21,365 bases of DNA from Baffinella frigidus (taxonomy: Eukaryota > Cryptophyceae > Cryptomonadales > Baffinellaceae), in NCBI GenBank assembly GCA_026770585.1, contig MU646339.1:1113956-1135320 (forward strand). Reading direction: 5' to 3'. Numbering within the stretch: the first letter of the stretch is position 1; each line of letters opens with the position of its first letter. The translations under genes and the position numbers were made by a program. The notes beneath the pieces were generated by a model. That model made no database searches, was not told the DNA's origin, and was given only the letters and a program-made list of their open reading frames with translations. This document shows positions 1 through 21,281 of the stretch, piece after piece.

Positions 1-156
1 AAACCCCACACCCCAAACCCCAAACCCCACACCCCAAACCCTAAACCCTAACCCCTAAACCCCAAACCCCAAACCCCAAACCCCAACCCCCCAAACCCCA
101 AACCCCAAGCCCCCAACCCCCAACCCCCCAAACCCTAACCCCCAAACGCACAACAG
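1..156. repeat. CCCCAAA/CCCTAAA telomere-like array (intron)
   Basis: Heptamer-like array with the C-rich strand on the coding strand, ending at the acceptor of exon 1. Variants CCCCAAA, CCCTAAA and CCCACAC-type units are mixed. Because it abuts an exon rather than ending the chromosome, I read it as intron DNA and not a telomere. Confidence 0.85.
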
Positions 157-216
157 GTGCCATGCCAGGAGGTGATCCGCGACTGGTTCTACCGCGATGC
201 CTGCGACGCTGTCCAG
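157..216 (+). CDS. DUF1995 gene exon 1 (first visible), copy a
   Basis: Acceptor CAACAG precedes 157 and donor GTGCCT follows 216. It is 60 bp, phase 0 at both ends, and encodes 20 residues: VPCQEVIRDW then FYRDACDAVQ. It corresponds to the helix that opens the DUF1995 domain. A second internal AG (167-168) could serve as a later acceptor in phase 0, removing four residues. The left flank is a CCCCAAA array and the right flank is G-rich TTTAGGG-like DNA. Whether this copy, the copy at 472-531, or both are spliced in cannot be decided from sequence. Confidence 0.7.
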
Positions 217-3200
217 GTGCCTATCAGCTGAGGTTTGGGGTTGAGGATTAAGGGTTTGGGGTTTAGGATGTGGAGTTGAGGGTTTGGGTTTCGCGTTTCG
301 CGTTTCGCGTAGGGTTCATGGTTTGGGGGTTGGGGGTTTGGTGTTGAGGGTTTAGGGTTGAGGGTTTAGGGTTTGGGGTTGACGGTTTAGGGAGGAAGGG
401 TCCAGGCGCCTCCCCGCGCCAACCCCCAGAACATCAAAAGGTTTAGGGTATGTTGTTTTAGGTTCGAACAGGTGGCATGCCAGGAGGTGATCCGCGACTG
501 GTTCTACCGCGATGCCTGCGATGCTGTCCAGGTGCTTTGGATTGAGGATTCGGGACATAAGGTTTGGTGTTGGAGGTTTGGGGTTCAGGGTTCATGGTTT
601 AGGGTTTGCTGCCCCCTGAAATCAACCCATGGCGTGTTGGTGTGGGATCCAGGGCTTAGGGATGATTTCAACGTTCAAATCCCCAAACCAACGCGACCTA
701 AGCCCACACCAACGCGACCTGAGCTTAGGGTTGGTTTCAAAGGAACGCTCACCCCCTCTTCCTGGACGCAGGTCCCATCGCAAGACCCCGCGGCAAGACA
801 GAGTGAGAGAGGTTGCTTTTTGTGCAACACGCACCCCCCCCCTACCGGAACCCCAGACCCCAAACCAAGCCTAAACCCTAAGTGGCCCTGGACGCAGGTC
901 ACGTCGACCCTGAAATCACTCCAGGTCACGTTGGTGTGGGGTCCAAGGCTTAGGGTTGATTTCAAAGGAACGCTCACCCCCCTTCCTGGACGCAGTTGCA
1001 AGAACCCGCGGCAAGATAGAGTAAGAGAGGTTGCTTTTTGTGCAACGCGCAAAACCATCCTGAGGGTTGAGGGTTGAGGGCCTGAACCCCAAACCCCAAA
1101 CCACGCCTAAACCCTAAATTGCCCTGAACGTAGGTTGCGTTGCAAGACCCAGAGTTGATCGCGAAGGCCAACGGACGCTTCAAGATCGAGTGTGTTCCGC
1201 CGGAGATCAACCCCGAGATGGACACCTTCCGGGTAACCAACCAGAACCCCGAAAACCGAAACCCTTACTCAACCCGAAACCCAAAACCCGAAACCAGAAA
1301 CCAGAAACCAGAAACCAGAAACCCTACCTAGACCCGAAACCCCGAAACTCGAAACCCTAACGAAACCCGAAACCCGAAACACGGAACACGCAAGATTTAC
1401 CTGGAGGAGCGTTTCGTGTTCAGAGGGTTTAGGCATTCGGGATGAGGTGTTGGGTATTAGGGGTGTCTTCAGGATCGAGTGCAGGTTTTTTATCGCCGGA
1501 AATGAACCCCGACATTGACTCCTTCCAGGTAACCTTGAAATCCGAAACCCGAAATCCTGAACCCAAAACCCGAAACCCTAAACCCTAAACCCTAAACCCT
1601 AAACCCTAAACCCTAAACCCTAAACCCTAAGCCCGAAACCCTGCTTCAACCCGAAGCCCGAAGCAAGAAACACCAAACCCTAACCGCAGGTTGGGACGAT
1701 GCTAGAGATGGTGCGGGAGCTCTATTTCGTGTTTATGGTTGAGTGTGTAGTGTGTCGTGTGTCGTGTGTAGTGTGAAGTGTATAGTGTATAGTGTATAGT
1801 GTATAATGTATAGTGTACAGTGTATAGTGTGCAGCGTATATTGTTTAGTGTGTAGTGTGTAGTGTGTAGTGTGTAGTGTGTAGTGTGTAGTGTATGGTGT
1901 ATAGTGTATGTGTATAGGGTATAATGTATAGTGTATAGTGCATACTGTATAGTGCTGAACCTAAACGCTCAATGCTAAACCCCTGGTGTACCTTTTTGCG
2001 CAGGTGGGGACGATGCTAGAGATAGCAAAAAGGAAGCTCGCGTATCCTGAACCGTATCCTGAACCCCAAGCCTCTAGGGTTGCTGCATCAACCTTGAACG
2101 TTGTTTTCCTTGAAACCGGAAAAATCTGTTTTTTCTTCTTGAAACCTTACGGGTTTTACCGAGTTTTGTCTGTGCCTTTTTGAGCAGGTGGGGACGATGG
2201 TAGAGATGGTGCGGGAACTCGTAACCTGAACCCCACGCCTCTAGGGTTCCTGCATCAACCTTGGAACCCTTCCGGGTTTTGGGTTAGTGAGGGTTACTGA
2301 AGGTAGTTGGATTCGTCTGGGTTCAGGTGGGGACGATGCTGGAGATGGTGCGGGAGCTCGCGCTGCGCATCGCCCTCGTTAACAACAAACGCGTACCGCC
2401 CCTCTCCTACCCTCTATACCCTACCCTACCCTACCCTACCCTACCCTACCCTACCCTACCCTACCCTACCCACATTAGTCCTCGTCAACAACAAACGCGT
2501 TCCGCCCTACCCTACCTACCCAGCACCCTAACTACCCTACCCTAACTAGGGTACATAGGGTAGGTAGGGTAGGGTAGGTAGGGCGTAGGGTAGGTAGGGT
2601 GCTGGGACCCTACCTACCCTACCCAGCGATGCGCATCGCCCTCGTCAACAACAAACGCGTACCTCCCCGCCCTACCCTAATCCCCCACACCCTACCCTAC
2701 CTACCCTAGCCCTCGGCAACGGCAAGCGCGTACCGCCCCGCCCTACCCTACTTACCCTACCCTACCTACCCATCACCCTACCCAGCACCCTACCTACCCT
2801 ATCTACCCTACCTACCCTACCCAGGGGAGGGTCTCCCGTGAAAGTTGCAACTTAGCTGGGTCATACTGGTAATGGCAAAGCAAGGTCAAGTAACCCCCAA
2901 ACCCTGAACCCTAAACCCTAAACCCTAAACCCTAAACCCTAAACCCTAAACCCTAAACCCTAAACTCTAAACCCTAAACCCTAAACCCTAAACCCTACAC
3001 CCTAAACCCTAAACCCAGGTGAAGATCTTCCCTGTAGTGTTTTGAGTGGATAGCAAAGCAAGGTCACACCATCCCCAATCCAATAATTGACTTGAGAATG
3101 TTCCCTGTAGTGTTTTGAGTGGATAGTAAAGCAAGGTCACACAACCCCCAAACCCTGAAACCAGGTGAAGATCTGCATCCAGGGGTCGCTCGGGGAGGGC

Positions 3201-3240
3201 ATCTTCACCGGACTCCCGCTCATGCTCTCTGGCATGCGCA

Positions 3241-3286
<46 letters not shown>

Positions 3287-3304
3287 CATACATACATACA
3301 TACA

Positions 3305-3340
<36 letters not shown>

Positions 3341-6300
3341 TATATGTATATGTATATATATGTATATGTATATGTAAATAATACTATATATATGTATATA
3401 TATGTGCATCTTCACCGGGCTCCCTCTCATGCTCTCTGGCATGCGCAATGTTGGACCCCGATACCCGAAATCCGAAATCCGAAATCCGAACCAGAAACCC
3501 CGAACCCGAAACCTGAAACCCGAAACCCGAAACTCCAAACCCGAAGCCCAAACCCAGAACCCGAAACCCCGAAACCCGAACCCCTGAACCCTAAATGCAC
3601 CGGCAGGTTGTGGAAGGCATGGATTGGGAGGCGCGCGAGGGCGAAATGTACGCTGGTAACTACCCGAAACTAACTACCCGAAACTCACTACCCGAAACTC
3701 ACTACCTGAAACTCACTACCCGAAACTCACTACCCGAAACTCACTACCCGAAACTCACTACCCGAAACGGTGGGGAAAGGCTTTTTCTCTCTCTCTATCG
3801 CACGAACGCGTATTTTCTCTCCAGGCAAGAAGCGCGTGTTTTCTTACACAGCGAGAGAGGGCGAGATGTACGCGGGTATACCTGCCCCGAAACCCTGCCC
3901 CGAAAACAGAACGGGGTGGGTTATGATTTCGTTGAGATGAAACAACGCGTGATTCCGCTCTGATAGGTTAACGTGATTTCTCTCCAGGAACCGCCCTTCT
4001 TCTCTCTAGCAAGCGAACACGTGGGTTTTCTCCAGGAACGAAGGGCTTGTTTTCCCCGGCGCACACACAGTGTGCTTCGAAGGATTTTTCGTCCGAAAAT
4101 CTGGTCGAAATATCGGTTAACTAAATGTCCTTGCACGCAGCATCGGTGAATTAAATGTCCAGTTAATCAACTGATTAAACCTCGGTCAATTAAATGTCGT
4201 TGTACGCGTTCAACATCAGGGCTGATGGTGAACGACATCATCAACCGGCGCACGGGCGAAGTAGCTATCAAGGGCTCCAAGGACGTACACTAGATGCCTT
4301 TACATACCTGTTTAAAGTCCTTTTGCAACCTTTTGTTGCAAAGAAACGGCCTTTACAAACCTGTCAAAAATAATTTTGCAAGTAAGTCTTTTTGCAGCGT
4401 TGCCAGATTTTGCCACTTTGGCGTTTGGCAGGGCTGATGGTCAACGACATCAAACTAACCCTGCAATCCCAAGAAACCCAAACCCGAAACTAACCCCGAA
4501 ACCCGAAACCCGAAACCCTGACTAGGGCTGATGGTGAACGACATCATCAACCGGCGCACGGGCGAGGTGGCGATCAAGGGCTCCAAGGAGGGCCGCGTCT
4601 CTTTCGGGGAGGTCCCTCCCACTCGGAACCACGCCAGAGGGTTTCCTCACGAAACAATCCAGTTGTTAACTCGAAAATGTTAAGAGGTTAGTAAAGAAGA
4701 GAAGAGAAGGATGTGTGAGGTGGCCAGCAAGGGCTCCAAGGACGGCCTTGTCTCTTTTTCGGGGAGGTCCCTCCTTACCCTGAACCCTAAACGTTGAATA
4801 AACCTTAAGCCCTACACTTTGACTACGAAAAATAGCACTTCCATGTTGGTGTAACTTATTTTAGAACTCTTGTAGGTAGTCCCAAATGTTGACCGCTGGT
4901 CAACATTCCAAATGTTGACCGGTTGTCAACTTTCAAAATGTTGACCGCTGGTCAACTTTAGGCTGCTCTCGAGGCGGGTCTGTGGGAGTGGTTCTTTCTT
5001 TCTAAACACGGGCGGGTGGGATAGACAGAACCACGCCCAAAACAGAATCTCCCGCCTAACCACTCGAGGCAAGAAACATGAGTATTTTAAAACCGGGGGC
5101 CCTTAAGTGGGGTGGTGTGTAGTAATTTTCGCATACGTATCCGGGTTTGGTGACATACGGGAGCTACGTGATCAAACTCGGGATCTCCCGCCTACCGCTG
5201 TCGAGTGACTTTGCCACCAAATTAAAATCCAGAGCCGGAAATCCGGTCGTGGTTTTTAATTTTAAAAGGACTTTGAAAGTCCATTTCCTTCACGAGTCAC
5301 GGGGAAGTTTTTTGAACCCTTTAAAATTGTGCCCCGTCCTCGCTCGGCAGCGTACCCCCAACCCCAAACCCGAACAACCAGGTCGGGCCCCAAAACCTCA
5401 GACCCCAGACAAGGTGTTGAGGGTTTAGGGTTGAAACTAGACCTAAAATCTAAACACCACACCCGAAACCCGAAACCCGAAACCCAAAACCCAAAACCCA
5501 AAACCCAAATCCTAAATCCCTAGTCCCAAAACCCAAACACCAAACGGCAGGTGGGACCGAATGTGGACGATGATGACGGCATTTTTGGAGGGTTTGGAGG
5601 GATATCATGCTCTGAGGGGCGATGGCAATAAAGACCGTCTAGCCTCGAGTGCAAACCCTCAACCCCCAACCTGAAATACCGTCCAGGTGGGACCGAACGT
5701 GGTCGAAGATGACGACGAGGTCTTCATTGTCATCGCGCCTCAGAGCATGGTATCCCTCCAGACCCTCTCAAGTTGACGGATTTGTACCGGGATCAACTTA
5801 AGAATAGTCCGAATGGAGGATAAGGTCTGCATCGCCCCCCAGAGCATGGTCTTCCCCCAAACCCTCGAAACTTGACGGGTTTGTACCGGGAGCCCAGAAC
5901 GTCAACTTAAGAATAGTCCGAATGGACGACCAGGTCTTGATCGTCATCACCCCACAGAGCATGGTCCCCCCTAAACCTTAAACCCTAGACACCAAAAGGC
6001 TGTTTTTACCCTAAGTTGACGGGTTTGTACTAGAAGCCCAGAACGTCAACTTATGGATAGTCCGACTGGAGGATGAAGTCTTGATCGTCATCGCACCCCA
6101 GAAAAGGGTCTCCCTCCAAACCCCGTAGGGTCCAGAGTTTGGGGTTTGGGGTTTGGGGTTTCCGGCAGGGGCGTAACCTACACCCTACACCCTACACACT
6201 AAACCCTAAACCCTAAACCCTAAACCCTAAACCCCTAGACCATAACACCTAAACCCTATTTCTCACTCCTAAACCCTACACCCTAACCCCCAGACCCCAA

Positions 6301-8844
6301 TCCCCAACCCTTCACACAGGTCGGCCCCATGCGGCCTTTCATCCTCATCAACCCTCTAACACCTAAACCCCAAACCCTAAGCCCTAAGCCCTAAACCCCA
6401 AACCCTAAACCCTAAACCCTAAACCCTAAACCCTAAACCCTAAACCCTAAACCCTAAGCCAATGAACCCAAAACCCCAAATCCCAAACCCCAAAACCCAA
6501 AACCCAAAACCCAAACCCCAAAACCCAAAACCCAAAACCCTGAACCACCTAACCCCTCTTTCTCACCTCTAAACCCTAACAACCCCAACCCCCAGACCCC
6601 AAACCCCAACCCTTCACGCAGGTCGGCGGAGCGTGTACGACCTGAAACCCCAACCCCTGAAACCTGAAACCTCAACCTGTGAAACCTGAGACCCTAACAC
6701 CTAAAACCTGAAACCCCAACCCCTGAAACCTGAAACCCGAACACCTAAAACCTGAAACCCAAACCCCTGAAACCTGAAACCCCAACCCCTCAAACCTGAA
6801 ACCTGAAACCCCTCAAACCTGAAACCCTAACCCCCAAATCCGAAAGGTCGGCGCGAGCGTGTACGGCGTCCTCGCCACGATAGTCGCCAAGGCCGAAACT
6901 ATTCGGGGCTTATTTCGCAAACCAGCCAAGGAAAATAGACCACACCCTGGTGCAGGCGCTGAACTCTATGAACCCCACACCCTGGCGCAGGTTGGCGCGA
7001 GCGGGTACGACGTGCTGGCGCCGGTGGTCGGCCGAAACCATGAGGGGCTGATCTCGCGAAACAGCAAGAAAAATAGGCCCCACCCTGGCGCCGAAACTAC
7101 GAGGGGCTTATTTCGCAAAACAGCAAGAAAAATAGGCCACACCCTGGCGCTAAACCTGACACCCTGGCGCAGATCGGCGCGAGCGTGTATGACGTGCTGG
7201 CGCCGATGGTCGCGAAGGCAGGCCCCACGCGGCCCTTCATCCTCATCAACCCCCGCCTCCGCGACCGCCCCTCCTCCGGTACACTCCCTCAATATGTGCA
7301 ATAAACCCTGAACCCTCATCCCTCAACCCTAACCCCTAAACCCTAACCCCTAACCCTAAACCCTAAACCCTCTCGACCAGGTGGGGTAATGTCGTTCAGA
7401 GGGCGGCCCCTAACCCATAATCCCAAAACCTTAAACCCCAAGCCCTAAACCCTAACCCCTGAATCAGGCGGGGTAATGTCGTTCGGAGGCCGTTCCCAGC
7501 GTCCCGAGTCCGCTGCGCCCCTCTAACCCCTACACCCTAGGGTTTAGTGGCCACGCCCCTCTAACCCTTAAGCCCTAACCCCGACACCCTCTCAACAAGG
7601 CGGAGTCGTGTCGTTCGGCGGGCGGCTCCTAACCCATAATGCCCAACCCCCCAAAACCCTAAACCATCATCCTTAACCCTAAACTCTAAACCTTGTACCC
7701 TGAATCAGGTGGGGTGATGTCGTTCGGTTGGTGGGCGCAGCGACTCGAGTTCGCCGCGCCCCTCTAACCCCTCACCCCTCACCCCTAAGCACGAAACCAT
7801 GACCCCGAAAGCAGGTGGGGTGATGTCGTTCGGCGGGCGGGCGCAGCGCCTCGAGTTCGCCGCCTCGTTCACCCAGGTTACCCCTCACCCATATATATAT
7901 ATATATATAGGTTACCCCTCACCCATATAATTACTGAACGAGGCGGCGAACTCGAGGCTTGGTTACCTCTCACTTTTTTCCTTCTTCTTCGTTACTCTCG
8001 ATACAGGTCCTAAGAGAACCCCTAACCCCTAACCTCTAACCCCTAACCCTTAACCACCAACCCCTAACCCCTCACCCCTCGCCCCTAACCCCAAACCCCT
8101 AACCCCTAACCCCTAACCCCTAACCCCTGAACCCTAATTATAACCCTGCCTCCTTCTCAAGCGGCTTTAGTTCGCCTTCTTTCAGGTTACCCCTAACCCC
8201 TAGAATTACTACACACTTGGGTCATACTAGTCATAGTAAAGCAGTTGTGTAGTGATTTTTGTTGCCAGCTTCTAAAAGAAAAACACACCCAACCCCTAGA
8301 ATTGCTTCACAAGCGGGTCATACCAGTCATAGTAAAGCAGTTGTGTAGTGATTTTTGTTGCCAGCTTCTAAAAGAACAATCCGTTTCCCCGGATTAATTA
8401 ACCCTGAAGTTCGGAGGGCGGTCCGAGCGGCTCAACCACACAGCGGACTTCGAAGGGATCTTGAATAACCCTTAAGCGATAAGACCTAGGACCCTACGGT
8501 AGGCAACCCGTAGGGACATAAGGGGGGTCCTCAGGATACGGTAACGGTCAGACCTAGGACCCCAAAAATTCCCTTTGTAGCCCTCTTTGTGGGTTCCTCC
8601 TTCACTCAGGTTCGCATATCCGTGTTTGTTTTTGATAAAGGAAGTGTGGGGCTACGAATATTACTACGCAACTGCTTTGGATACCGCTCTAACGCCTCTC
8701 TCTCTCCCTCCCTCTCTCTCCCTCTCTCCCTCCCTCCCTCTCTCCCTCTCCCTCTCCCTCTCTCTCTCTCTCTCTCGCTCTCTCCCGTGTGGCTGTTTGA
8801 AACGTAACCGTTACAACGTTCTCCCCCCCTCTCTCTCTCCCTCT

Positions 8845-8881
<37 letters not shown>

Positions 8882-8966
8882 CCGGGTGGCAGTTTGAAAT
8901 GTAACCGTTGTAACGGTCTCTCCCTCCCTCTCTCCCTCTATCCCTCTCTCTCTCCATCTCTCTCCC

Positions 8967-8998
<32 letters not shown>

Positions 8999-11473
8999 CC
9001 GGGTGACAGTTTGAAACGTAACCGTCATAACGATCTCTCTCTCGCGGGTGGCAGATCTACCACTTCCGACTGCTCTACTCCGGATCCACGTTCATGTTCC
9101 CCGTCCAGGTTTGCTTCTGGGTTACGGATTGGAGGTTGGGGGGTTCCCATGATTTCGGCGGCCAATTTCTCTGCATTTTGTTGCACACATGCTTCTCAGA
9201 GAGAGAGAGAGAGCGAGAGAGAGAGAGAGAGGGAGCGAGAGGGAGGGAGGGAGGGAGAGAGAGAGAGCCTGTCAGGCTGAGAGAGAGAGAGCCTGTCAGG
9301 CACCATGGGAGAGAGAGAGAGCCTGTCAGGCAGGGAGAGAGAGAGAGCCTGTCAGGCACCATAGGATCTCTCGACTGCTCTTCGCAGGATCCACGTTCAT
9401 GTTCCCTGTCCAGGTTCGCTTCTGGGTTATGGGTTACGGGTTACGGCTTGGCAGTTATGGGTTACAGGTTACGGGTTTTGGGTTACGGGTTACGAGTTGG
9501 AGGTCAGCGGTTAGAAGTTAGCAGTTAGAGGTTAGCGGTTGGGGATTGGGGGGTAGGGAATATGGTTCAGGGGTTATGGATTCAGGCTCGCTTCGCCACA
9601 AGCCCCGATTTGCCAACGACGGGACTCTCCTTGCGTCTCGACGCAAGGACGAATTGCCATACGAGAATGCCAGCGGGGTCTATTCAAAACCGAGAGATGT
9701 AGCCTTTATGTAGTAACTTTCATTGCATGTGGAGCCATTCCACCCCAAATTGGGCCAGACGCGAGGTTGGAACACCCTATCCTGGTACAAGTTTTTACAA
9801 CCCCACATGTAAATAGGCCCCTCTTGCATTCTCGAGTGGTGGGGGGCGGACGGCGAGAAAATGAGATATGAAGGTCTCTTTCTAACCCCTGAACCCTTGC
9901 AGGGAGCGCTGCGGTACACCCAGAAGCCAGAACCCAGAAGCAAACCAGAACCACGTTCATGTTCCCTGTCCAGGTTCGCTTCTGGGCCGCTAGAATCCTG
10001 GGAGCCCAGGGCGCCATGCGGAATCGGAACCTCCTACCCCTAACCCCTGAACCCTCGCAGGAAGCCTTGCGGTACAACCTCGCGAAAGGTTTAGGGGCTA
10101 GAAAGAGACCGATAAAGGAGACAAAGGTCTCTTTCTGACCCCTGAACCCTTGCAGGGAGCGCTGTGGTACAACTCCTCAACCCTAAACCCTAAACCCTTC
10201 ATCTTAAACCAGAACCCAGAATCCAGAAGCGAACCTGGACAGGGAACGTGGAGCCAGCGTACAGCAGCCGCTAGCCAACCTCCTACCCCTAACCCCTGAA
10301 CCCTGTTCGCCTGATTTCTGAAGAAAACAAGCTCCAGCTCCCCGATTTTTAAGTAAATCACTCGACCGGTTGAGACCCCCCCCGCGCGAAGCTGTCTGGT
10401 TCATAAAGGTCTCTTTCTGACCCCTAAACCGTTGCAGGGAGCGTTGCGGTACAACCTCGCGAACGCACCCTACTGGACGCTCTTCCGCCGTTTCCAGACG
10501 GACTCCGACGACGACGTAACTTCACCCTAAACCCTCACCCCCAAACCGTAAACCCGAAACACGGTGGACCACAAACTTTTCGGTAGTGCATCGTGCGGAA
10601 CCGAAAACCACAAACCTGGAGCCCGAAACCCGAAACCCGAAAGCGCCGCGCTACACCCTACTGGACGCTCCTCCGCCATTTCCAGACGGACTCCGACGAC
10701 CACGTAGCTCCACCCTAAACCCTAAACTCCAAACCCCAAACCCCAAACCCCAAACTCCAAACCCCAAACCCTAGCCCCGAAATCCGAAACCCTAAACCCT
10801 AAACCCTAAACCCTAAACCCTAAACCCTAAACCCTAAACCCTAAACCCTAAACCCTAAACCCGATACCCGTTACCCGATACCCTGAACCCGATACCCTGA
10901 ACCCGATACCCTGAACCCTTAACCCCAGACCCTAAACCCTAAACCCTAAACCCTAAACCCTAAACCTTAAATCCTAAACCCTAAACCTTAAATCCTAAAC
11001 CCTAAACCCTGAAGACTTGCCGGCCATGAAATATTTGGTCACGTGGCTACACGCTTTGCGTGTAGCCACGTGACCACCTACATACAAACCGCCTACAATC
11101 GACATTTAGAAAGGGTGCGTTGGTAGCCTCGTGTGGAACCCTAACCCCTACACCCTCCACCCCAGGAGCGCGAAGCGTACACCCCCCCTCAGAGCCCGAC
11201 TCCCCCGCCATCTGTCCCGCTTTGTAAGGCTTCCAACGCCGAAGAGAAGGGTAGATATGCTTTTTTAGGCATAAAAAGAGGCCTTAAGACAGCATAAATC
11301 AGGACAGATTCTGGTGTGTTCTGAGATCAACCCTGAACGCTACACCCTAACCACAGGAGCGCGAAGCGTACACCCCCCTCGCGGTCTACGCGTCTGAGCC
11401 CGACTCCCCGGCAATGACGGGCATCATCAAATCCAGCAAGGAGAAGGACGTCAAATCCAACACGCCGCCTTGA
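157..11473 (+). CDS. DUF1995-domain (plastid-type) protein, 12 exons, 5' end missing
   Basis: Join of 157-216, 1134-1232, 2327-2392, 3165-3242, 3607-3655, 4526-4611, 5687-5749, 7173-7278, 7815-7876, 9055-9108, 10438-10515, 11357-11473. Every junction is GT-AG and keeps phase, giving 305 codons and a TGA at 11471-11473. The joined product shows, in order, QGSLGEGIFTGLPL, a DWE motif, DDDEVFIVIAPQSM, RPFILINPRLRD, SFGGRAQRLEFA, YHFRLLYSGSTF and GALRYNL. From memory these match the order and spacing of the DUF1995 domain in plant chloroplast proteins (the LPA3/At5g27560-like group). The family is linked to photosystem assembly in plants through LPA3, but this subgroup's biochemical role is not known to me. 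The N-terminus, where a transit peptide would sit, is outside the window. The exon chain is seen directly; family membership is recognised from motifs; plastid location is inferred. Intron content is over 90% repeats and exon debris. Confidence 0.82.
221..470. repeat. G-rich TTTAGGG-like intron segment between exon 1 copies
   Basis: Degenerate GGTTTAG/GGTTGAG heptamers with the G-rich strand on the coding strand, opposite to nearly every other intron of this gene. It separates the two exon 1 copies and includes a triple TTTCGCG stretch near 287-308. Confidence 0.7.
472..531 (+). CDS. DUF1995 gene exon 1, copy b (near-identical duplicate)
   Basis: Duplicate of 157-216 with its own acceptor (GAACAG) and donor (GTGCTT). 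It differs at two bases: one changes the second residue from P to A, the other is silent (GAC to GAT). It is 60 bp and phase 0 on both sides, so use of a, b, or a plus b all keep frame. The strong identity suggests recent duplication or selection on both copies. It lies closer to exon 2 than copy a. Confidence 0.6.
605..1060 (+). repeat. Direct repeats of about 100 bp with exon 2 acceptor fragments
   Basis: Two long similar units (about 735-834 and 955-1053) share GGAACGCTCACCCCC, a GACGCAG acceptor-like site, GCGGCAAGA and GAGAGGTTGCTTTTTGTGCA. A weaker third unit is visible around 610-680. After the GACGCAG sites, the bases TCGCAAGACCC (near 778) and TTGCAAGAACCC (near 995) resemble the beginning of exon 2, so these are 5' fragments of exon 2 embedded in a larger tandem duplication. 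A further GACGCAGGTCACGTCGACC at 890-909 is a weaker candidate. Confidence 0.6.
1134..1232 (+). CDS. DUF1995 gene exon 2
   Basis: 99 bp, phase 0/0, with acceptor CGTAG and donor GTAACC. It encodes 33 residues including QDPELIAKANGRFKIECVPP and then EINPEMDTFR. The pattern of a basic residue, hydrophobic strand, then a proline-containing element fits the first beta strand of DUF1995 proteins. GC-rich third positions set it off from the AC-rich flanks. It is the only intact copy; 5' fragments lie upstream and a 3' fragment downstream. Confidence 0.75.
1466..1528 (+). pseudogene. 3' fragment of exon 2 (decayed)
   Basis: Downstream partial copy of exon 2 ending at the same donor GTAACC (1529). 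The second half still reads PEMNPDIDSFQ in the exon frame, but an insertion near 1484-1491 shifts frame relative to the RIEC start, so it cannot replace the exon. Confidence 0.7.
1555..1632. repeat. Pure CCCTAAA heptamer array in intron
   Basis: About ten consecutive CCCTAAA units with C-rich coding strand, flanked by CCCGAAA variants. Confidence 0.85.
1690..2221 (+). pseudogene. Three 5' fragments of exon 3
   Basis: Truncated copies start right after AG at 1690, 2004 and 2188, each beginning GT(T/G)GGGACGATG and stopping inside the exon (about 1722, 2042 and 2221). The first ends at GAGCTC, the second diverges after GAGATA, the third has one missense base early on. All keep a usable acceptor and none has a donor at the homologous place. 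Confidence 0.85.
1735..1957. repeat. AGTGTGT/AGTGTAT heptamer array
   Basis: Tandem 7-bp units AGTGTGT and AGTGTAT over some 220 bp. The unit length equals that of the telomere-like heptamers but the sequence differs. Confidence 0.8.
2327..2392 (+). CDS. DUF1995 gene exon 3
   Basis: 66 bp, phase 0/0, with acceptor GTTCAG and donor GTACCG. It encodes VGTMLEMVRELALRIALVNN followed by KR. The sequence reads as the helix-strand that precedes the VKICIQGS strand of the next exon. Third positions are mostly G or C. This exon has the clearest halo of fragments: three 5' pieces upstream and three 3' pieces downstream. Confidence 0.78.
2404..2824. repeat. CCCTA/CCTAC arrays with inverted G-rich block
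   Basis: Pentamer arrays of CCCTA and CTACCC-type units on both sides of a short reversed block (about 2546-2607, TAGGGTAGG). The CCCTA/AGGGT switch makes a potential long hairpin between about 2500 and 2620. Confidence 0.8.
2481..2729 (+). pseudogene. Three 3' fragments of exon 3
   Basis: Copies of the exon 3 end lie downstream at 2481-2498 (LVNNKR, then GTTCCG), 2627-2658 (contains RIALVNNKR, then GTACCT) and 2709-2729 (ALGNGKR, then GTACCG). Donor GT is kept in all three. They are separated by CCCTA pentamer arrays. Confidence 0.85.
2898..3017. repeat. CCCTAAA heptamer array in intron 3
   Basis: About 16 near-perfect CCCTAAA units ending directly at a decoy acceptor (AAACCCAG, 3018). Confidence 0.85.
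3019..3148 (+). repeat. 5' fragment of exon 4 and a 45-bp direct repeat
   Basis: GTGAAGATCT after CAG at 3018 repeats the exon 4 start. It is followed by CCCTGTAGTGTTTTGAGTGG and AAGCAAGGTCACAC (about 3029-3068), which recurs at about 3101-3143 just before the real exon. The AAGCAAGGTCA motif also occurs at about 2877-2888. Confidence 0.65.
3165..3242 (+). CDS. DUF1995 gene exon 4 (QGSLGEGIF motif)
   Basis: 78 bp, phase 0/0, with acceptor ACCAG and donor GTCTCT that runs straight into a (CT)n microsatellite. It encodes VKICIQGSLGEGIFTGLPLM and then LSGMRK. This is the most recognisable block of the family (QGS-GEG-F-G-PL). The donor lying inside a CT dinucleotide tract is unusual and means tract length changes begin immediately after the exon. 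Confidence 0.82.
3243..3402. repeat. (CT)n, (CATA)n and (TA/GTATA)n microsatellites
   Basis: Compound microsatellite beginning in the exon 4 donor: CT repeats to about 3279, then CATA tetranucleotides to about 3332, then TA/TATG repeats to about 3402. Confidence 0.9.
3406..3447 (+). pseudogene. 3' fragment of exon 4, donor destroyed
   Basis: Reads IFTGLPLMLSGMR like the end of exon 4 with only a few changed bases, but the junction AAG|GT has become AATGTT, so the donor is lost. It lies downstream of the intact exon. Confidence 0.85.
3455..3594. repeat. CCCGAAA/CCGAAAT array
   Basis: C-rich heptamer variant with G in place of T (CCCGAAA, CCGAAAT, CCAGAAA), ending 12 bp before the exon 5 acceptor. 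Confidence 0.8.
3607..3655 (+). CDS. DUF1995 gene exon 5 (DWE motif)
   Basis: 49 bp, starts in phase 0 and ends in phase 1, with acceptor CGGCAG and donor GTAACT. It encodes VVEGMDWEAREGEMYA plus the first base of a glycine codon, completed by exon 6. The MDW segment follows the QGS block at the spacing expected for DUF1995 proteins. Confidence 0.75.
3659..3770. repeat. 14-bp tandem repeat ACTACCCGAAACTC
   Basis: About eight copies of a 14-bp unit, exactly two heptamers long, starting immediately after the exon 5 donor and including the donor-like GTAACTACCC context. Confidence 0.85.
3850..3875 (+). pseudogene. 3' fragment of exon 5
   Basis: Encodes AREGEMYA and the first base of the next glycine codon, followed by GTATAC. 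It is the 3' half of exon 5 with the donor preserved, lying downstream of the intact exon. CTCTCCAGG-type repeats surround it (3780-4040). Confidence 0.75.
4096..4200. repeat. Short direct repeats TCGGT(A)AATTAAATGTC
   Basis: Four related units with TAAATGTC (about 4121, 4151, 4191 and variants) around TTGCACGC/TTGTACGC. No coding potential seen. The intron stretch 3876-4095 holds only CT-rich CTCTCCAG repeats. Confidence 0.5.
4220..4284 (+). CDS. Possible alternative exon 6 (truncated copy with own donor)
   Basis: Copy of the first 65 bp of exon 6 with acceptor CATCAG and a plausible donor GTACAC. It encodes GLMVNDIINRRTGEVAIKGS and KD. It enters in phase 1 and leaves in phase 0, exactly like the full exon, so splicing it in place of exon 6 would keep frame and shorten the protein by seven residues. 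Sequence differences from exon 6 are mostly silent (GAA for GAG, GTA for GTG, GCT for GCG). It could equally be an unused 5' fragment. Confidence 0.4.
4432..4452 (+). pseudogene. Second 5' fragment of exon 6
   Basis: GGCTGATGGTCAACGACATC after the acceptor TTTGGCAG repeats the first 20 bases of exon 6 with one change, then breaks into unrelated C-rich repeat. It lies between the longer copy (4220-4284) and the intact exon. Confidence 0.75.
4526..4611 (+). CDS. DUF1995 gene exon 6
   Basis: 86 bp, enters in phase 1 and leaves in phase 0, with acceptor ACTAG and donor GTCCCT. It encodes GLMVNDIINRRTGEVAIKGS then KEGRVSFGE. This is a more variable part of the family. A shorter version with its own donor lies at 4220-4284, so this position could host alternative exons. 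Confidence 0.72.
4717..4766 (+). pseudogene. 3' fragment of exon 6, frameshifted
   Basis: Copy of the exon 6 end followed by the same donor GTCCCT. Two extra T bases in the TCTCTTT run put it out of frame at the junction, and the VAI residues have become VAS. It lies downstream of the intact exon. Confidence 0.8.
4888..4956. repeat. Three GTTGACC palindromes at exact 26-bp period
   Basis: GTTGACCGCTGGTCAAC at 4888 and 4940 and GTTGACCGGTTGTCAAC at 4914. Each is a near-perfect inverted repeat of 17 bp, and starts are exactly 26 bp apart with AAAT before each. TTGACC is also the plant W-box core, but position inside an intron gives no proof of regulatory use. Confidence 0.8.
4967..5066. mobile_element. 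Inverted-repeat element with CTCGAGGCGGG ends
   Basis: Starts CTCGAGGCGGG and ends CCCGCCTAACCACTCGAG, with an inner pair GTGGTTCT / AGAACCAC. About 100 bp. The right-end sequence CTCCCGCCTA recurs at about 5187 next to GTCGAG, suggesting a second damaged end. Confidence 0.5.
5067..5550. other. Intron 6 distal part: no gene seen
   Basis: Contains small inverted repeats (AAATTAAAA about 5219 with TTTTAATTT about 5254; GGACTTTGAAAGTCC about 5269) and then CCCGAAA/CCCAAAA heptamers to 5540. Open frames here cross repeats and lack a family signature. Confidence 0.6.
5551..5580 (+). pseudogene. 5' fragment of exon 7
   Basis: After acceptor CGGCAG it reads VGPNVDDDDG, like the exon 7 start (VGPNVVEDDD), then stops matching. 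It lies upstream of the intact exon. Confidence 0.8.
5588..5635 (-). pseudogene. Inverted 3' fragment of exon 7 with its donor
   Basis: On the minus strand this is a close copy of about 5718-5767: the sequence for the FIVIAPQSM region, then GATATCCCTCC corresponding to the exon 7 donor and intron start (GGTATCCCTCC). It sits just after the direct 5' fragment, so the pair 5551-5580 and 5588-5635 forms a folded miniature of exon 7. Inversion cannot come from simple tandem duplication. Confidence 0.8.
5687..5749 (+). CDS. DUF1995 gene exon 7 (FIVIAPQ strand)
   Basis: 63 bp, phase 0/0, with acceptor GTCCAG and donor GTATCC. It encodes VGPNVVEDDDEVFIVIAPQS and M. An acidic run followed by a hydrophobic strand ending in APQ is characteristic of DUF1995 proteins. 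One 5' fragment and one inverted 3' fragment sit upstream; three 3' fragments sit downstream. Confidence 0.8.
5771..6110 (+). repeat. Tandem units with three 3' fragments of exon 7
   Basis: Three imperfect units of roughly 100-145 bp carry TTGACGG-TTTGTACC, then TCAACTTA-GAATAGTCCGA-TGGA, then a 3' piece of exon 7: 5816-5848 (ends APQSM-like, then GTCTTC), 5925-5962 (DDQVLIVITPQSM, then GTCCCC) and 6068-6106 (EDEVLIVIAPQKR, donor altered). The second and third stay readable in the exon frame. All lie downstream of the intact exon. Confidence 0.8.
6128..6560. repeat. CCCTAAA/CCCAAAA arrays in intron 7
   Basis: CCCTAAA units at about 6200-6240 and 6400-6460, CCCAAAA units at about 6465-6540, with a short reversed TTTGGGG block at about 6133-6160. 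Confidence 0.85.
6318..7033 (+). pseudogene. Four upstream partial copies of exon 8
   Basis: After AG at each start: 6320-6353 is a composite in which the first six bases GTCGGC are joined directly to the RPFILIN part; 6622-6642 keeps about 20 bases; 6847-6895 reads VGASVYGVLATIVAKAET; 6991-7033 reads VGASGYDVLAPVVG. The last two remain readable well into the exon. None carries the exon donor. Confidence 0.85.
6640..6846. repeat. CCTGAAA heptamer array
   Basis: Units CCTGAAA and CCCCTGAAA mixed with CCCAACC, C-rich on the coding strand, between two 5' fragments of exon 8. Confidence 0.8.
6893..7172 (+). repeat. Tandem units of about 60-140 bp before exon 8
   Basis: Three copies of CGAAAC-A-GGGGCT-AT-TCGC, then CAGC-AAGAAAAATAG and CACACCCTGGCGC (about 6892, 7032, 7090). 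The final CCCTGGCGCAG is the real exon 8 acceptor, so the acceptor itself is part of the repeated unit. Confidence 0.75.
7173..7278 (+). CDS. DUF1995 gene exon 8 (ILINPRL strand)
   Basis: 106 bp, enters phase 0 and leaves phase 1, with acceptor GCGCAG and donor GTACAC. It encodes IGASVYDVLAPMVAKAGPTR, then PFILINPRLRDRPSS. The NPRLRD segment after a buried strand is a family hallmark. The first codon is ATC, whereas all four upstream decoys start GTC or GTT. Very high GC at third positions. Confidence 0.8.
7381..7762 (+). pseudogene. Four 5' fragments of exon 9
   Basis: Copies begin right after AG at 7381 (to about 7405), 7468 (to about 7522), 7600 (to about 7629) and 7709 (to about 7762). 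All start G(T/C)GG(G/A)GT and include the MSFGG-like part. The second and fourth extend through the QRLEFA region with changes. They are spaced roughly 90-130 bp apart, with CCCTAAA-type DNA between them. Confidence 0.85.
7815..7876 (+). CDS. DUF1995 gene exon 9 (GGRAQRLEFA)
   Basis: 62 bp, enters phase 1 and leaves phase 0, with acceptor AGCAG and donor GTTACC. It encodes GVMSFGGRAQRLEFAASFTQ, preceded by a glycine made across the junction. The G-R-QRLE-A pattern is conserved in plant DUF1995 proteins. Four truncated 5' copies precede it, and direct and inverted 3' fragments follow. Confidence 0.8.
7877..7965. pseudogene. Exon 9 donor repeats and an inverted 3' fragment
   Basis: GGTTACCCCTCACCC occurs twice around a (TA)n run. 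At about 7933-7961, ACGAGGCGGCGAACTCGAGG is the reverse complement of the 3' part of exon 9. A further AGGCTTGGTTACC follows. Confidence 0.75.
8003..8142. repeat. CCCCTAA array
   Basis: Tandem CCCCTAA/CCCTAACC units within the intron after exon 9. Confidence 0.8.
8169..8460 (+). pseudogene. Direct 3' fragments of exon 9
   Basis: At 8169-8184 TTCGCC-TTCTTTCAG is followed by GTTACC, matching the exon 9 end and donor with a short deletion. At about 8410-8444 a diverged piece reads FGGRSERLNHTA, recalling FGGRAQRLEFAA, and then runs into a dispersed repeat. The second could instead come from a diverged duplicate of the exon. Confidence 0.55.
8201..8386 (+). repeat. Two tandem units of about 95 bp
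   Basis: Unit containing TAGAATT-CT-CACA, GGGTCATAC-AGTCATAGTA, AAGCAGTTGTGTAGTGATTT and TTGTTGCCAGCTTCTAAAAG, present at about 8201-8286 and 8296-8376. A related GGGTCATACTGGTAATGGCA lies at about 2859 in another intron. Confidence 0.75.
8445..8541. repeat. Dispersed repeat E, copy 1
   Basis: About 97 bp beginning GGACTTCGAAGGGAT and including CCTAGGACCCTACGGTAGGC and CCGTAGGGACATA. It matches 19129-19228 at most positions. The centre contains an inverted repeat (CCCTACGGTAGG / CCGTAGGG) like the core of the family A elements. Confidence 0.75.
8696..9054 (+). repeat. CT-tract tandem units with GGTGGCAG motif
   Basis: Three repeats of a long (CT)n/(CCCT)n tract followed by (C)CCG-GTGGC-G-TTTGAAA-GTAACCGT and AACG-TCTC (about 8786, 8882, 8999). 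A fourth GGTGGCAG at about 9047 is the real acceptor of exon 10. Confidence 0.8.
9055..9108 (+). CDS. DUF1995 gene exon 10 (YHFRLLYSG)
   Basis: 54 bp, phase 0/0, with acceptor GGTGGCAG and donor GTTTGC. It encodes IYHFRLLYSGSTFMFPVQ. The Y-FRLLY motif directly after FTQ of exon 9 matches family order. Its acceptor lies at the last member of a tandem array of CT-tract units that each carry a GGTGGCAG-like motif. Confidence 0.8.
9199..9363. repeat. (GA)n tract with four GCCTGTCAGGC palindromes
   Basis: GA dinucleotide tract 9199-9266, then four copies of the palindrome GCCTGTCAGGC at 9267, 9291, 9321 and 9347 separated by GAGAGAGA and CACCATGG. It is the opposite strand composition to the CT tract before exon 10. 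Confidence 0.85.
9421..9560. repeat. GGGTTAC/GGTTAGC heptamer array
   Basis: Degenerate G-rich heptamers (GGGTTAC, AGGTTAC, GGTTAGC, AGTTAGA) on the coding strand. Confidence 0.75.
9570..9890. other. Intron 10 unique stretch, no gene seen
   Basis: Mostly unique sequence with a perfect 10-bp-arm hairpin TCCTTGCGTC/GACGCAAGGA (9628-9649). Open frames on both strands here cross repeats and show no recognisable domain. Confidence 0.6.
9903..10173 (+). pseudogene. Three 5' fragments of exon 11
   Basis: After CAG at each start: 9903-9918 (GGAGCGCTGCGGTAC), 10061-10086 (reads EALRYNLAK-like) and 10156-10173 (GALWYN). All share the upstream context CCCCTGAACCC(T)(T/C)GCAG with the real acceptor. 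Confidence 0.85.
10223..10252 (-). pseudogene. Inverted 3' fragment of exon 10
   Basis: CAGAAGCGAACCTGGACAGG followed by GAACGTGGA is the reverse complement of the exon 10 end plus its intron start (TCCACGTTC-CCTGTCCAGG-TTCGCTTCTG), missing six internal bases. It is the third inverted fragment in this gene. Confidence 0.8.
10438..10515 (+). CDS. DUF1995 gene exon 11 (GALRY / YWTLFRR)
   Basis: 78 bp, phase 0/0, with acceptor GTTGCAG and donor GTAACT. It encodes GALRYNLANAPYWTLFRRFQ and TDSDDD. The GALR motif followed by a W-x-L-F-R-R segment fits the C-terminal part of DUF1995. Confidence 0.8.
10653..10703 (+). pseudogene. 3' fragment of exon 11
   Basis: Reads TPYWTLLRHFQTDSDDH in the exon frame, followed by GTAGCT. 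It keeps frame, donor and most residues, so it might be spliced if an acceptor existed, but none is evident directly at its start. Confidence 0.8.
10712..11010. repeat. CCCTAAA/CCCCAAA array with CCCGATACCCTGAA 14-mers
   Basis: Long run of CCCCAAA then CCCTAAA units; in the middle (about 10860-10915) the 14-bp unit CCCGATACCCTGAA repeats, again a multiple of seven. Confidence 0.9.
11037..11075. other. Perfect 18-bp-arm hairpin with G-box
   Basis: GGTCACGTGGCTACACGC, a three-base TTT loop, then the exact reverse complement. Each arm carries CACGTG. It sits in the last intron, 91 bp before the partial copy of the last exon. Confidence 0.85.
11166..11211 (+). pseudogene. Internally deleted copy of the last exon
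   Basis: After CCCCAG it repeats GAGCGCGAAGCGTACACCCC and then jumps to the EPDSP part, lacking the bases for AVYA. It lies upstream of the intact last exon. Confidence 0.85.
11357..11473 (+). CDS. DUF1995 gene last exon with stop
   Basis: 117 bp, enters in phase 0 after acceptor CCACAG. It encodes EREAYTPLAVYASEPDSPAM, then TGIIKSSKEKDVKSNTPP, then TGA (11471-11473). It reads as the final beta strand (LAVYASEP) and a lysine-rich tail, where family members also end. A shorter internally deleted copy lies upstream at 11166-11211. Confidence 0.75.
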   Translation, partial: EREAYTPLAVYASEPDSPAMTGIIKSSKEKDVKSNTPP

Positions 11474-11594
11474 CAACCGCGCCGCGGCCTCATTCAAATC
11501 CAACTGATGGTTAGATCCAATTGATGGTCAAATCCGTTGACTTTCGCTGACTGGGAGGGCCGAAAGTAGTGTAGGGACCCAGGGGAGGGGGTCC

Positions 11595-11715
11595 TACAGG
11601 GGTACCTCGCTCATGAGAAACTGCCCCCCCCCTAGGACCACCACAGGGCCCTAGGCATAGCCCTACTGTAGGGTCCTAGGGGGGGGCGGTTTCTTATGAG
11701 CGAGGTACCCCTGTA
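11595..11715. mobile_element. Family A palindromic element, copy 1
   Basis: About 121 bp with terminal inverted repeats TACAGGGGTACCTCGCTCAT / ATGAGCGAGGTACCCCTGTA continuing into (A/G)AGAAAC-GCCCCCC, and a core with CCTAGG-ACC and ACTGTAGGG. No open frame, so it is a non-autonomous MITE-like element. The outer TA on each side could be the target duplication around CAGGGG ends; this is a guess. Confidence 0.85.
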
Positions 11716-11787
11716 GGGTTCTACATGTATCCAGGCAGGGAAGATGGCTTCGGGTGCCGTTGCCAGGCACACCAATCCTCTTATCTG

Positions 11788-11892
11788 TATCCCGTAAGTG
11801 CCCATAGGGTGAATATTCACCGCAACTCGCCCATAGGCAAGTCCTATGGCCCTACCGTAGGGCGTTTGAGCCTAAGGGGCACTTAAGGGATA
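11788..11892. mobile_element. Family B inverted-repeat element, copy 1
   Basis: About 105 bp with ends TATCCCGTAAGTGCCC and GGGCACTTAAGGGATA, an inner short palindrome GGTGAATATTCACC (11808-11821), and a core CCTACCGTAGGGCGT-TGAGCC. No open frame. Confidence 0.8.
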
Positions 11893-11983
11893 GCCATGAG
11901 ACGTTTGGGCTATTTCGGGAAGTGGTGCTCCTCCTCAGAAGGACTCCCCACGAGGCAACAACCTCGCCAGTGTTCACACACGG

Positions 11984-12103
11984 TACAGGGGTACCTCGCT
12001 CATAAGAAAGCGACCCCCCCTAGGACCCTACAGTAGGCCTATGCCTAGGGCCCTATGGTTGTCCTAGGGGGGGGCGGTTTCTTATGAGCGGGGTACCCCT
12101 GTA
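11984..12103. mobile_element. Family A palindromic element, copy 2
   Basis: About 120 bp with both inverted ends. The right arm has one change (GCGGGGTACC). Core reads CCTAGGACCCTACAGTAGGC. Confidence 0.85.
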
Positions 12104-12260
12104 CCATTCAGCGGTAGGAGGTGGAGATCGAATTCATCCGGAAACAGCGCGTCAGAGCGGCCGACACGGGGCAAGTAGCACAATGCGCAAGGCATGTGCG
12201 GCGCTGGCGCTGGTTGTTTGGCAATAAATTACCAATCTCTCTACCATTCAGCGTTGACCC

Positions 12261-12381
12261 TACAGGGGTACCTCGCTCATAACAACGCGCCACCCCCTAG
12301 GACCCTACAGTAGGCCCATGCCTAGGGCCATATGGTGGTCCTAGGGGGGGGGCGGGTTCTTATGAGCGAGGTACCCCTGTA
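12261..12381. mobile_element. Family A palindromic element, copy 3
   Basis: About 121 bp with both ends intact. The left arm has an AACAACGCGCC variant in place of AGAAACCGCC. Confidence 0.85.
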
Positions 12382-12386
12382 GCACC

Positions 12387-12500
12387 CTCGAAGGAATACC
12401 GGGTGGCCTGCTGCCCTGCTGCCCTCTTTAGGTGTTTTAGGTTATTCGAGTTCCCAACATAGGCGGACACCGGAACTTATCCTGCAGAAAGGCCTCTGCG
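12387..12500. repeat. Dispersed modules shared with 16.4 kb and 17.7 kb
   Basis: CCTCGAAGGAATACCGGGTG and GGCCTGCT (about 12387-12416) match 16416-16443; TTTTAGGTTATTCGAGTTCC then CAACATAGGCGGACACCGGA (about 12435-12476) match 17748-17788. In this locus the modules are adjacent, elsewhere they are apart. Confidence 0.7.
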
Positions 12501-12540
12501 GCAAGACTGGGGTGGAACCTTGTCTACTCTGGGACGCTGT

Positions 12541-12640
12541 TACAGGGGTACCTCGCTCATAAGAAACTGCCCCCCCCCTAGGACCACTATCATAGGCCCT
12601 AGGCATAGGCCTCTGGTGGGCCCGTTTCTTAAGGCTCATA
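12541..12640. mobile_element. Family A element, copy 4, right end broken
   Basis: Intact left arm and core, but the right arm degenerates after CGTTTCTTAAGGCTCATA and lacks the GTACCCCTGTA terminus. Confidence 0.75.
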
Positions 12641-12695
12641 GATTTTTGTATCACCCAACTCAAGGCTCACGGGTTGAGGACCTGTATCGAGAGCA

Positions 12696-12918
12696 CAGCG
12701 GTACCTCGCTCATAAGAAAGCGGAGAGCGAAACGCGATCCGAAAGCAAAAATGCTTTCTCTGCAGTCCTTTCTACGGAAGGGCGTGTCGTTGGCATATGT
12801 CGGGAGAAATTAAAACCTAAAGTTCCTAAAGGCCTCCCCCTAGGACCCTACAGTAGGGCCTAGGGCCCTATGGCGGTCCTGGGGGGGGGCGTTTTTTTAC
12901 GAGCGAGGTACCCCTGTA
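12696..12918. mobile_element. Family A element, copy 5, interrupted
   Basis: Left arm ACAGCGGTACCTCGCTCATA and intact right arm, separated by about 110 bp of extra DNA (12721-12832) placed between the left arm and the CCTAGGACCCTACAGTAGG core. The extra DNA has no clear inverted ends. Confidence 0.65.
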
Positions 12919-12992
12919 ATAACGAAGAAGAAAGAAGAGCATCTGCGTGGTGCCCGATCTGGGCCAGCGAGTGTCGCAGAAAGGATGCTCGG
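12919..12992. repeat. Dispersed module shared with 16.68 kb
   Basis: GCATCTGCGTGGTG-GATCTGGG-CG-GATC/AGTG-GCAG (about 12938-12983) resembles 16678-16718. Confidence 0.55.
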
Positions 12993-13113
12993 TACAGGGA
13001 TACCTCGCTCATAAGAAACCGCCCCTCCCTAGTACCCTACAGTAGGCCTATGCCTAGGACCCTATGGTGGTCCTCGGGGGGAGGCAGTTTCTCATGAGCG
13101 AGGTACCCCTGTA
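12993..13113. mobile_element. Family A palindromic element, copy 6
   Basis: About 121 bp with ends TACAGGGATACC and GGTACCCCTGTA and the usual core. Confidence 0.85.
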
Positions 13114-13132
13114 GTAGCGCACACCAAGGGCC

Positions 13133-13347
13133 TACAGGGGTACCTCGCTCATGAGAAACCGCACCCCCCTAGAAACGACATGGGGCCCTGGGTATCCCTT
13201 AAGTGACCAACGGGCGAATAATCGCCCGTGGAAGCCCTAGGCAGGTCCTAGGGCCCTACGGTAGGGCGTATGAGCCTACTGGTCACTTGAGGGATAGCCC
13301 TACTGTAGGGACCTCTAGGGGCTGGCGGTTTCTCATGAGCGAGGTAT
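13133..13347. mobile_element. Family A element, copy 7, with family B inserted
   Basis: Left end TACAGGGGTACCTCGCTCAT and right arm GTTTCTCATGAGCGAGGTA (terminal bases lost). Its centre is occupied by the family B element at 13193-13296. Confidence 0.8.
13193..13296. mobile_element. Family B element, copy 2, nested in family A
   Basis: About 104 bp with ends TATCCCTTAAGTGACCA and TGGTCACTTGAGGGATA, and an inner hairpin CGGGCGA-ATAA-TCGCCCG (13211-13228). It lies within family A copy 7, so family B moved after that copy landed. Confidence 0.8.
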
Positions 13348-14582: not shown

Positions 14583-14739
14583 CGATTCCGGACCCCACTT
14601 TACTACGCGTTTCACTACGAGATCCTAGGATTCCCGACGCCGCGTCGAAATACGTCTTCCTTTGGACTTCCTTTCGACTTCCTTTCGAGAATCCTAGGAT
14701 CTCATAGTGAAACGCGTAGTAAAGTGGGGTCCGAAATCG
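14583..14739. mobile_element. Inverted-repeat element, 51-bp arms (family D)
   Basis: Arms 14583-14633 and 14689-14739 are reverse complements with two mismatches over 51 bp, around a 55-bp centre that itself repeats CTTCCTTT(G/C)GA. The near-perfect arms suggest a recent insertion or strong hairpin. No open frame of its own. Confidence 0.85.
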
Positions 14740-17993: not shown

Positions 17994-18061
17994 AACCTTC
18001 AACAGTTCAAAAGAGACGACCCGCGAGGTGTTTACTCTCTTTCGTGGGGGTCCTCTCTCAG

Positions 18062-21279: not shown

Positions 21280-21281
21280 GT

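Follow-up and report, generated by a model that had tools for sequence, protein, structure and literature searches.

Long introns are commonly attributed to transposons. Duplication has been reviewed as a source of new introns (PMC3443670), and in the potato RdRp gene, according to the accessible text of the report, a single tandem duplication that spanned an intron-exon boundary made a new intron with the use of a cryptic donor (PMC4974935). The locus described here lies in a window of 21,365 nucleotides (the whole stretch of DNA that was analysed) from the cryptophyte Baffinella frigidus and differs from the potato case in that dozens of copies are present, both exon ends are involved, and existing introns are enlarged. 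The Rogers/Hellsten AGGT model, as set out in the accessible part of a review (PMC3443670), resembles the present case in its local tandem duplication, its AG|GT-like junctions and its unchanged protein, but it derives new introns from exon DNA, whereas here existing splice sites are copied and old introns are lengthened. The internal gene duplication studied by Gao and Lynch in 2009 (as cited in the accessible text of PMC4974935) is alike in comprising within-gene duplications, including those of whole introns.

Two further systems share some features with the locus. Duplications attributed to repair in primates are also local copies, of about 150 bp, and include four partial exon/intron pieces, but tandem cases (within 50 bp) were removed from that study and one exon copy in it was inverted, as far as its accessible text goes (PMC2671141), whereas nearly all copies at the present locus are direct and polar. 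Introners likewise bring about a mass change of eukaryotic intron content; they are described in the available part of the source as intron-generating transposable elements (PMC9860276), whereas the introns of the gene studied here have no common sequence after masking. Among the papers listed from an incomplete library of open-licence literature, none describes dense polar exon fragments that enlarge introns. The preliminary description of this DNA had stated that no named system has such a layout, which was too strong, since a single boundary-crossing tandem duplication has been described (PMC4974935, in its accessible text). Boundary-crossing tandem duplication itself is known, and what sets the present case apart from the potato gene is the density of the copies, the involvement of both exon ends and the growth of existing introns. 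The draft genome of Baffinella CCMP2293 has been reported to span 535 Mb, which is 6.1 times the size of that of Guillardia theta, and the word "intron" was not found in the accessible main text of the report (PMC9756366).

The DUF1995 gene and its exon fragments

The first gene of the window (gene 1) consists of 12 exons (A-L) on the forward strand, which join in frame to encode 305 amino acids followed by a stop codon. The exons were delimited by in-frame joining and, from exon B onwards, also by alignment with the deposited protein P0001, and they are located at 472-531 (exon A, the second of two copies), 1134-1232 (B), 2327-2392 (C), 3165-3242 (D), 3607-3655 (E), 4526-4611 (F), 5687-5749 (G), 7173-7278 (H), 7815-7876 (I), 9055-9108 (J), 10438-10515 (K) and 11357-11473 (L, with the stop codon). 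Exon lengths range from 49 to 117 nt, and intron lengths range from 364 to 1423 nt. The spliced product matches the DUF1995 profile PF09353 (E = 1.6e-23, 84.2 bits, cut-off 26), and the database protein that fits it best is P0001, which is partial and annotated as hypothetical (T484DRAFT_1770435, Baffinella frigidus); we take the T484 project to be that of strain CCMP2293. The deposited model P0001 agrees with exons A-L at all 12 of them, and this exon-by-exon agreement together with the profile match confirms the DUF1995 exons that had been proposed for positions 157 to 11473.

The surplus of P0001 is limited to two segments, namely a copy of exon A at 157-216 and 12 residues from 6991-7026. 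The 12-residue insertion is present in none of the seven aligned homologues, and the exon A region is single in all four homologues that cover it (P0002, P0004, P0008, and P0009). The deposited model appears to contain false duplicate exons. The segment at 157-216 (forward strand) is a whole-exon copy with acceptor, exon and donor, and is 97% identical to 472-531. It keeps the residues VPC, as found in P0002 and P0004, while 472-531 reads VAC, and the upstream copy may therefore be the original one; taken together, both copies amount to 20 residues that are absent from P0002 and P0004. As well, no tRNA was found in the window and no Rfam family at gathering score, and in a scan with a DUF1995 alignment 19 stretches of viral_contigs fitted a pattern, none of which was confirmed as a relative by tblastn.

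Exon fragments were searched by blastn-short with the exons against the window, and 47 matches reached a score of at least 26, including 12 self matches. Forty dinucleotide shuffles of the window gave a mean of 1.3 matches, and the reversed window peaked at a score of 25. Gene 1 carries 17 direct exon starts (5' fragments; three of exon C, two of F, one of G, three of H, four of I, three of K, and one of L) and 12 direct exon ends (3' fragments; one each of B, D, E, F, and K, two each of C and J, and three of G), while exon M2 of a second gene contributes a further two starts, which precede it, and one end, which follows it. The preliminary description had counted about 21 starts and 14 ends, which is close to the 19 and 13 found above the threshold with a few more below it. 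Outside these counts are the exon H match at 6323, the whole copy of exon A, the inverted copies, and an inverted exon C match at 19943-19964 (score 27), which lies 17.5 kb off and was treated as chance. Below the threshold, three exon B starts near 772, 897, and 995 and an exon C end at 2712-2729 were recognized by eye, and a relaxed search returned an exon D start at 3019 (score 20).

Except for three inverted copies, the fragments of gene 1 are located on the forward strand. Exon B is followed by a 3' fragment at 1467-1526 (score 42) and then a donor. Exon C is preceded by 5' fragments at 1690-1722 (score 56), 2004-2023 (score 35 and alignment, where a unit begins that is repeated at 2188) and 2188-2221 (score 53), and is followed by 3' fragments with donors at 2480-2498 (score 33) and 2626-2658 (score 56). 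The 3' fragment of exon D at 3406-3448 (score 76) has lost its donor, and that of exon E at 3851-3873 (score 31) is followed by one. Exon F possesses 5' fragments at 4220-4283 (score 113, covering 64 of its 86 nt) and 4432-4452 (score 37) and a 3' fragment with donor at 4717-4766 (score 62). For exon G, a 5' fragment at 5551-5578 (score 41) and an inverted copy of its 3' end at 5606-5636 (reverse strand, score 47) are accompanied by a head-to-tail array of exon ends at 5711-6180, which comprises four copies, that is, the intact one and those at 5830-5848, 5925-5963, and 6069-6102.

Upstream of exon H, a match at 6323-6354 (score 54) aligns with the interior of the exon, and by eye this copy shows the acceptor and first bases at 6320 followed by an internal deletion; further 5' fragments are found at 6623-6644 (score 27), 6848-6893 (score 52), and 6994-7030 (score 59), where P0001 takes 6991-7026 as an exon. 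The 5' fragments of exon I at 7381-7406 (score 37) and 7470-7516 (score 44) are the first and second members of a duplicated pair, whose copies with the same break points lie at 7609-7625 (exon nt 10-26, score 34) and 7709-7757 (score 78), respectively, and nt 34-57 of this exon recur as an inverted copy at 7935-7958 (reverse strand, score 48). Exon J has a 3' fragment with donor at 9372-9413 (score 64) and an inverted copy of its nt 13-39 at 10244-10270 (reverse strand, score 29). A 71-nt pseudo-exon at 9903-9973 is made up of an exon K start (9903-9921) and then an exon J end (9945-9973). Exon K has further 5' fragments at 10063-10086 (score 43) and 10156-10173 (score 26) and a 3' fragment with donor at 10654-10703 (score 85), and exon L has a 5' fragment at 11166-11187 (score 44). 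A chance origin of the fragments was ruled out by the shuffled and reversed windows together with the exon-by-intron matrix given below, and an origin from cDNA was ruled out as well, for what precedes the exon sequence in the fragments is an intron acceptor and not the preceding exon's end.

Polarity and local duplication

All 19 direct exon starts are located upstream of their own intact exon (17 in gene 1 and two at M2), and all 13 direct exon ends are located downstream of theirs (12 and one, respectively), so that the polarity described beforehand holds throughout the window. Counted once per exon and side, it amounts to 17 of 17 (2^-17, about 8e-6), a figure to be read with the fact that nested copies are not mutually independent and that the data are two genes of one genome. 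Nine relaxed matches in adjacent introns (scores 20-25) included no direct start or end fragment that runs counter to this polarity. In an exon-by-intron matrix of gene 1, in which the sequence preceding exon A and that following exon L were counted as introns, scores of at least 26 were reached in the exon's own upstream stretch for 8 of 12 exons and in its own downstream stretch for 8 of 12, while none of the 132 non-own combinations reached 26. The geometric cause that had been proposed for the polarity, namely direct duplication of a segment that begins or ends within the exon, is supported.

A self-alignment of the window, which had been named beforehand as a check, bears this out with direct and local repeat pairs. 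Short tandem repeats and frequent 7-mers were masked for this comparison (52% of gene 1), with E at most 0.01. Gene 1 yielded 27 repeat pairs, of which 26 are direct and one is inverted, a proportion that somewhat overstates the bias because, of the three inverted exon copies, two are undetected after masking. All 27 pairs, whose members are 30-611 nt apart, are confined to one stretch or link an exon with the stretch next to it, and none of the masked pairs joins different introns of gene 1 (common heptamer repeats being masked). Duplications of intron sequence only are found at 3040/3113, 7048/7107, 8219-8283/8315-8379, and 8789/8886/9003.

Repeated units cross splice sites at four places. 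The exon G ends stand four in a row, each of the first three with the same intron segment behind it, and at three successive junctions the same intron point is joined to exon G near nt 25. For exon I, a block of two start fragments is present twice, at 7381-7608 and 7609-7814, with break points at exon nt 26 and 49 that are identical in both blocks, and Tandem Repeats Finder independently reported an array with a period of 87 (7320-7489) over the acceptor of this exon. A repeated unit also crosses the splice site in the exon C starts 2004 and 2188. In the exon H pair 6991/7173 the upstream intron flank is duplicated too, as seen in the masked comparison (6909-6938/7107-7135), and the flank extends over as much as 99 nt (p = 0.03; the null was unmasked and included several positions off by at least one base, among them 892 and 986 for exon B, 3018 and 3448 for exon D, 7605 for exon I, and 2730 for the exon C end, none of which was used in the fragment counts). 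Telomere-like heptamers lend unrelated introns a resemblance to one another, so that flank extension judged by this unmasked null is weak evidence, and the masked comparison was relied on more. The introns are rich in these heptamers, which are strand-biased, with 151 occurrences of AAACCC and 24 of GGGTTT on the coding strand of gene 1 (window 1-11473).

The copies are not uniformly clean. A contiguous unit with its flank is seen for exons G, I, H, and C (2004/2188) and is absent for the exon D end. For the starts of exons C (against the intact exon), F, and G, identity within the exon portion is 89-95%, yet only 2-3 nt of intron upstream of the acceptor are in common; for the whole copy of exon A, the common flank upstream is 5 nt. 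Purely contiguous tandem duplication predicts a common flank, so that later replacement of the flank, or joining through filler as when staggered breaks are filled in, must be assumed. Across the catalogue, fragments are 75-100% identical to the intact exons. Low-complexity sequence makes up 53% of the filler in 15 hand-picked segments against 56% of introns generally, by which a specially telomere-like nature of the filler is not supported. The view that the copies are clean tandem duplicates holds for the exon G, I, H, and C (2004/2188) arrays, but not for the C (against the intact exon), F, and G starts with their 2-3 nt flanks nor for the three inverted copies. The proposal that the introns grow by duplication across their own junctions is supported in part, in that repeated units cross splice sites, but the duplication is not specific to junctions; the conversion of old junctions into intron DNA is supported, for instance by the exon G end array and the exon I pair-block. 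At the level of the sequence, the fragments, their polarity, locality and orientation bias, and the repeated units that cross splice sites are established.

Splicing among decoys and the origin of the fragments

The decoy sites of gene 1 were tried in turn (18 acceptors, the one at 6320 among them, and 11 donors, the exon D fragment being left out), and none of the 29 kept the frame open, which means that splicing has to pass them over. Among the possibilities that do stay in frame are the copy at 157-216 and the segment at 6991-7026, both of which were taken as exons by the deposited model. All 19 start fragments retain AG, and 11 of the 13 end fragments retain GT. The splice signals are thin, with little beyond GT at the donors and YAG|G at the acceptors (11 donors, 12 acceptors), and no pyrimidine tract was found at the 12 acceptors, which are 41-65% pyrimidine at -20 to -4. 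Among the catalogued splice sites, composite exons that use decoys measure at least 162 nt, and real exons measure 49-117 nt. The sole exception is the 71-nt pseudo-exon at 9903-9973, which is out of frame and breaks a shortest-exon rule; its order, an exon K start and then an exon J end, is that left by a duplication spanning the whole J-K intron. As the composites are longer than real exons, the choice of the shortest acceptor-donor pair among the catalogued sites would suffice, save at 9903-9973. The spliceosome had been proposed to choose the first donor and the last acceptor; this need not amount to a special rule, because among the catalogued sites the shortest pair agrees with it save once. 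Judging from these lengths, exon definition, that is, recognition of the shortest pair, may be what picks the true exons.

We consider it probable that the introns grow by frequent local direct duplication, mostly tandem and not aimed at splice sites. Such duplications would arise at a high rate and fall anywhere in the gene, through slippage, unequal exchange or staggered-break repair as conceivable mutational routes. One that runs from the upstream intron into an exon would leave a truncated start upstream and the intact exon downstream, and one that runs from the exon into the downstream intron would leave a truncated exon end downstream. Those wholly within introns would be retained too, and their existence points to a general process of local direct duplication of which the exon fragments are the recognisable part. 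Duplications that copy a whole exon or lie inside one would alter the protein and were probably lost, presumably by selection. Splicing may tolerate the leftovers because each fragment carries one splice site only, and recognition of short exons would pick the true exon as the shortest acceptor-donor pair.

Repair-mediated capture, in which intron breaks are filled with short copies of proximal DNA including exons and no true tandem duplication takes place, would account for the 71-276 nt of non-homologous filler that separates copies in 15 hand-picked cases, and the inverted copies at 5606, 7935, and 10244 need template-switching or a repair route. According to the accessible texts, such capture is known in primates, where copies of proximal origin (<5 kb) average 162 bp (PMC2671141), and telomere-like inserts have been reported from break repair (PMC7215372). 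From its mechanism, however, capture should show no side preference and frequent inversion, whereas 32 of 32 fragments are on the predicted side and 26 of 27 masked pairs are direct, and head-to-tail arrays exist; we regard it as rather unlikely. Polarity also weighs against the idea that whole exons were duplicated in tandem and half of each copy was later deleted, with selection against surplus acceptor-donor pairs sorting the losses. Either half would then be expected upstream, whereas exon ends lie upstream in 0 of 19 cases and exon starts downstream in 0 of 13, and the exon G and I arrays have common within-exon break points. This leaves halving very improbable, even with one whole-exon copy in existence (157-216) and with internal deletions recognized by eye in two copies, that of exon H at 6320 and that of exon L at 11166.

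The retained AG and GT dinucleotides (19 of 19 starts and 11 of 13 ends) and the two copies that deposited P0001 takes as in-frame exons would suit fragments that are in use, whether as alternative or mutually exclusive exons or as regulatory decoys that poison the transcript. Such use is quite improbable in view of the 0 of 29 alternative sites that keep the frame, the absence of the 12-residue insertion from all seven aligned homologues, and the single exon A region in 4 of 4 homologues covering it. The genome has been described as a draft in the accessible text of its report (PMC9756366), and a short-read or error-prone assembly could have joined partial copies, but misassembled copies are expected to be near-identical, whereas those found here have diverged variously (75-100%); with the perfect polarity and the same pattern in a second gene, an assembly artefact is extremely improbable.

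Under local direct duplication with uniform break points, the number of whole-exon copies expected among 32 events touching an exon depends on the length of the duplicated unit. With the offset between successive copies as unit (87-560 nt, median 156.5), 14 of the 32 events are expected to give whole copies and one whole copy is seen (P about 1e-8), and with the shared block as unit (24-165 nt, median 63.5), 3.1 are expected (P(<=1) = 0.13). The true deficit lies between the two estimates, nested events not being independent. A selection filter against whole-exon copies is plausible, and our confidence in it is lowered by the shrinkage of the deficit to P = 0.13 with shared blocks. A wider reading, that intron growth is genome-wide and continuing, with purifying selection, working by way of exon definition, as the sieve that retains any local duplication which leaves exactly one short acceptor-donor pair per exon, is put forward as possible rather than probable.

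Selection preserves the exons, which thereby mark each duplication and make the growth of the introns legible. If the sieve reading is true, the halo of fragments would record intron growth as a fossil archive that can be read, while every intron would be a natural experiment in which the true site is chosen among near-identical decoys with a consensus barely beyond GT and CAG. If the process is general, it would help explain the 535-Mb genome and offer a natural test of how the spliceosome chooses among near-identical decoys with very weak signals. Moreover, gene models from such genomes may carry false duplicate exons.

The second gene and the intergenic region

The second gene (19416-21280, P0033) matches T484DRAFT_1770437. 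Its exon M2 at 20561-20616 (forward strand), defined by the homologous protein P0037, is preceded by 5' fragments at 20300-20316 (score 29) and 20394-20438 (score 70) and followed by a 3' fragment at 20702-20732 (score 52), all on the forward strand. The 3' fragment has lost its donor and belongs to the second unit of a tandem array at 20585-20814, which Tandem Repeats Finder placed over the M2 donor with a period of 117 bp. The identity within this array is 84%, where 20,000 random ungapped offsets peak at 80%, and it counts less because the intron part of the array is rich in heptamers and thus partly of low complexity. The deposited model P0033 jumps to 21247-21280 and omits M2 and M3 (20883-20909), both of which are supported by P0037, and the automatic gene model appears to err in the second gene too.

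After masking, the intergenic region yielded two direct pairs 4-5 kb apart and no local direct pair, unlike the introns. Its heptamer arrays at 13378-13871 and 18061-18240 are oriented opposite to those in the introns of gene 1. Several palindromic elements were recognized by eye at 11557-13345, bounded by sequences similar to GGGGTACCTCGCTCATAAGAAAC and its reverse complement around a core of CCTAGGACC; they look like a small inverted-repeat transposon, and neither viral_contigs nor genome_contigs yielded an exact match to the end of the element. As well, short inverted repeats about 80 nt apart are present at 14599-14723 and 16958-17104.
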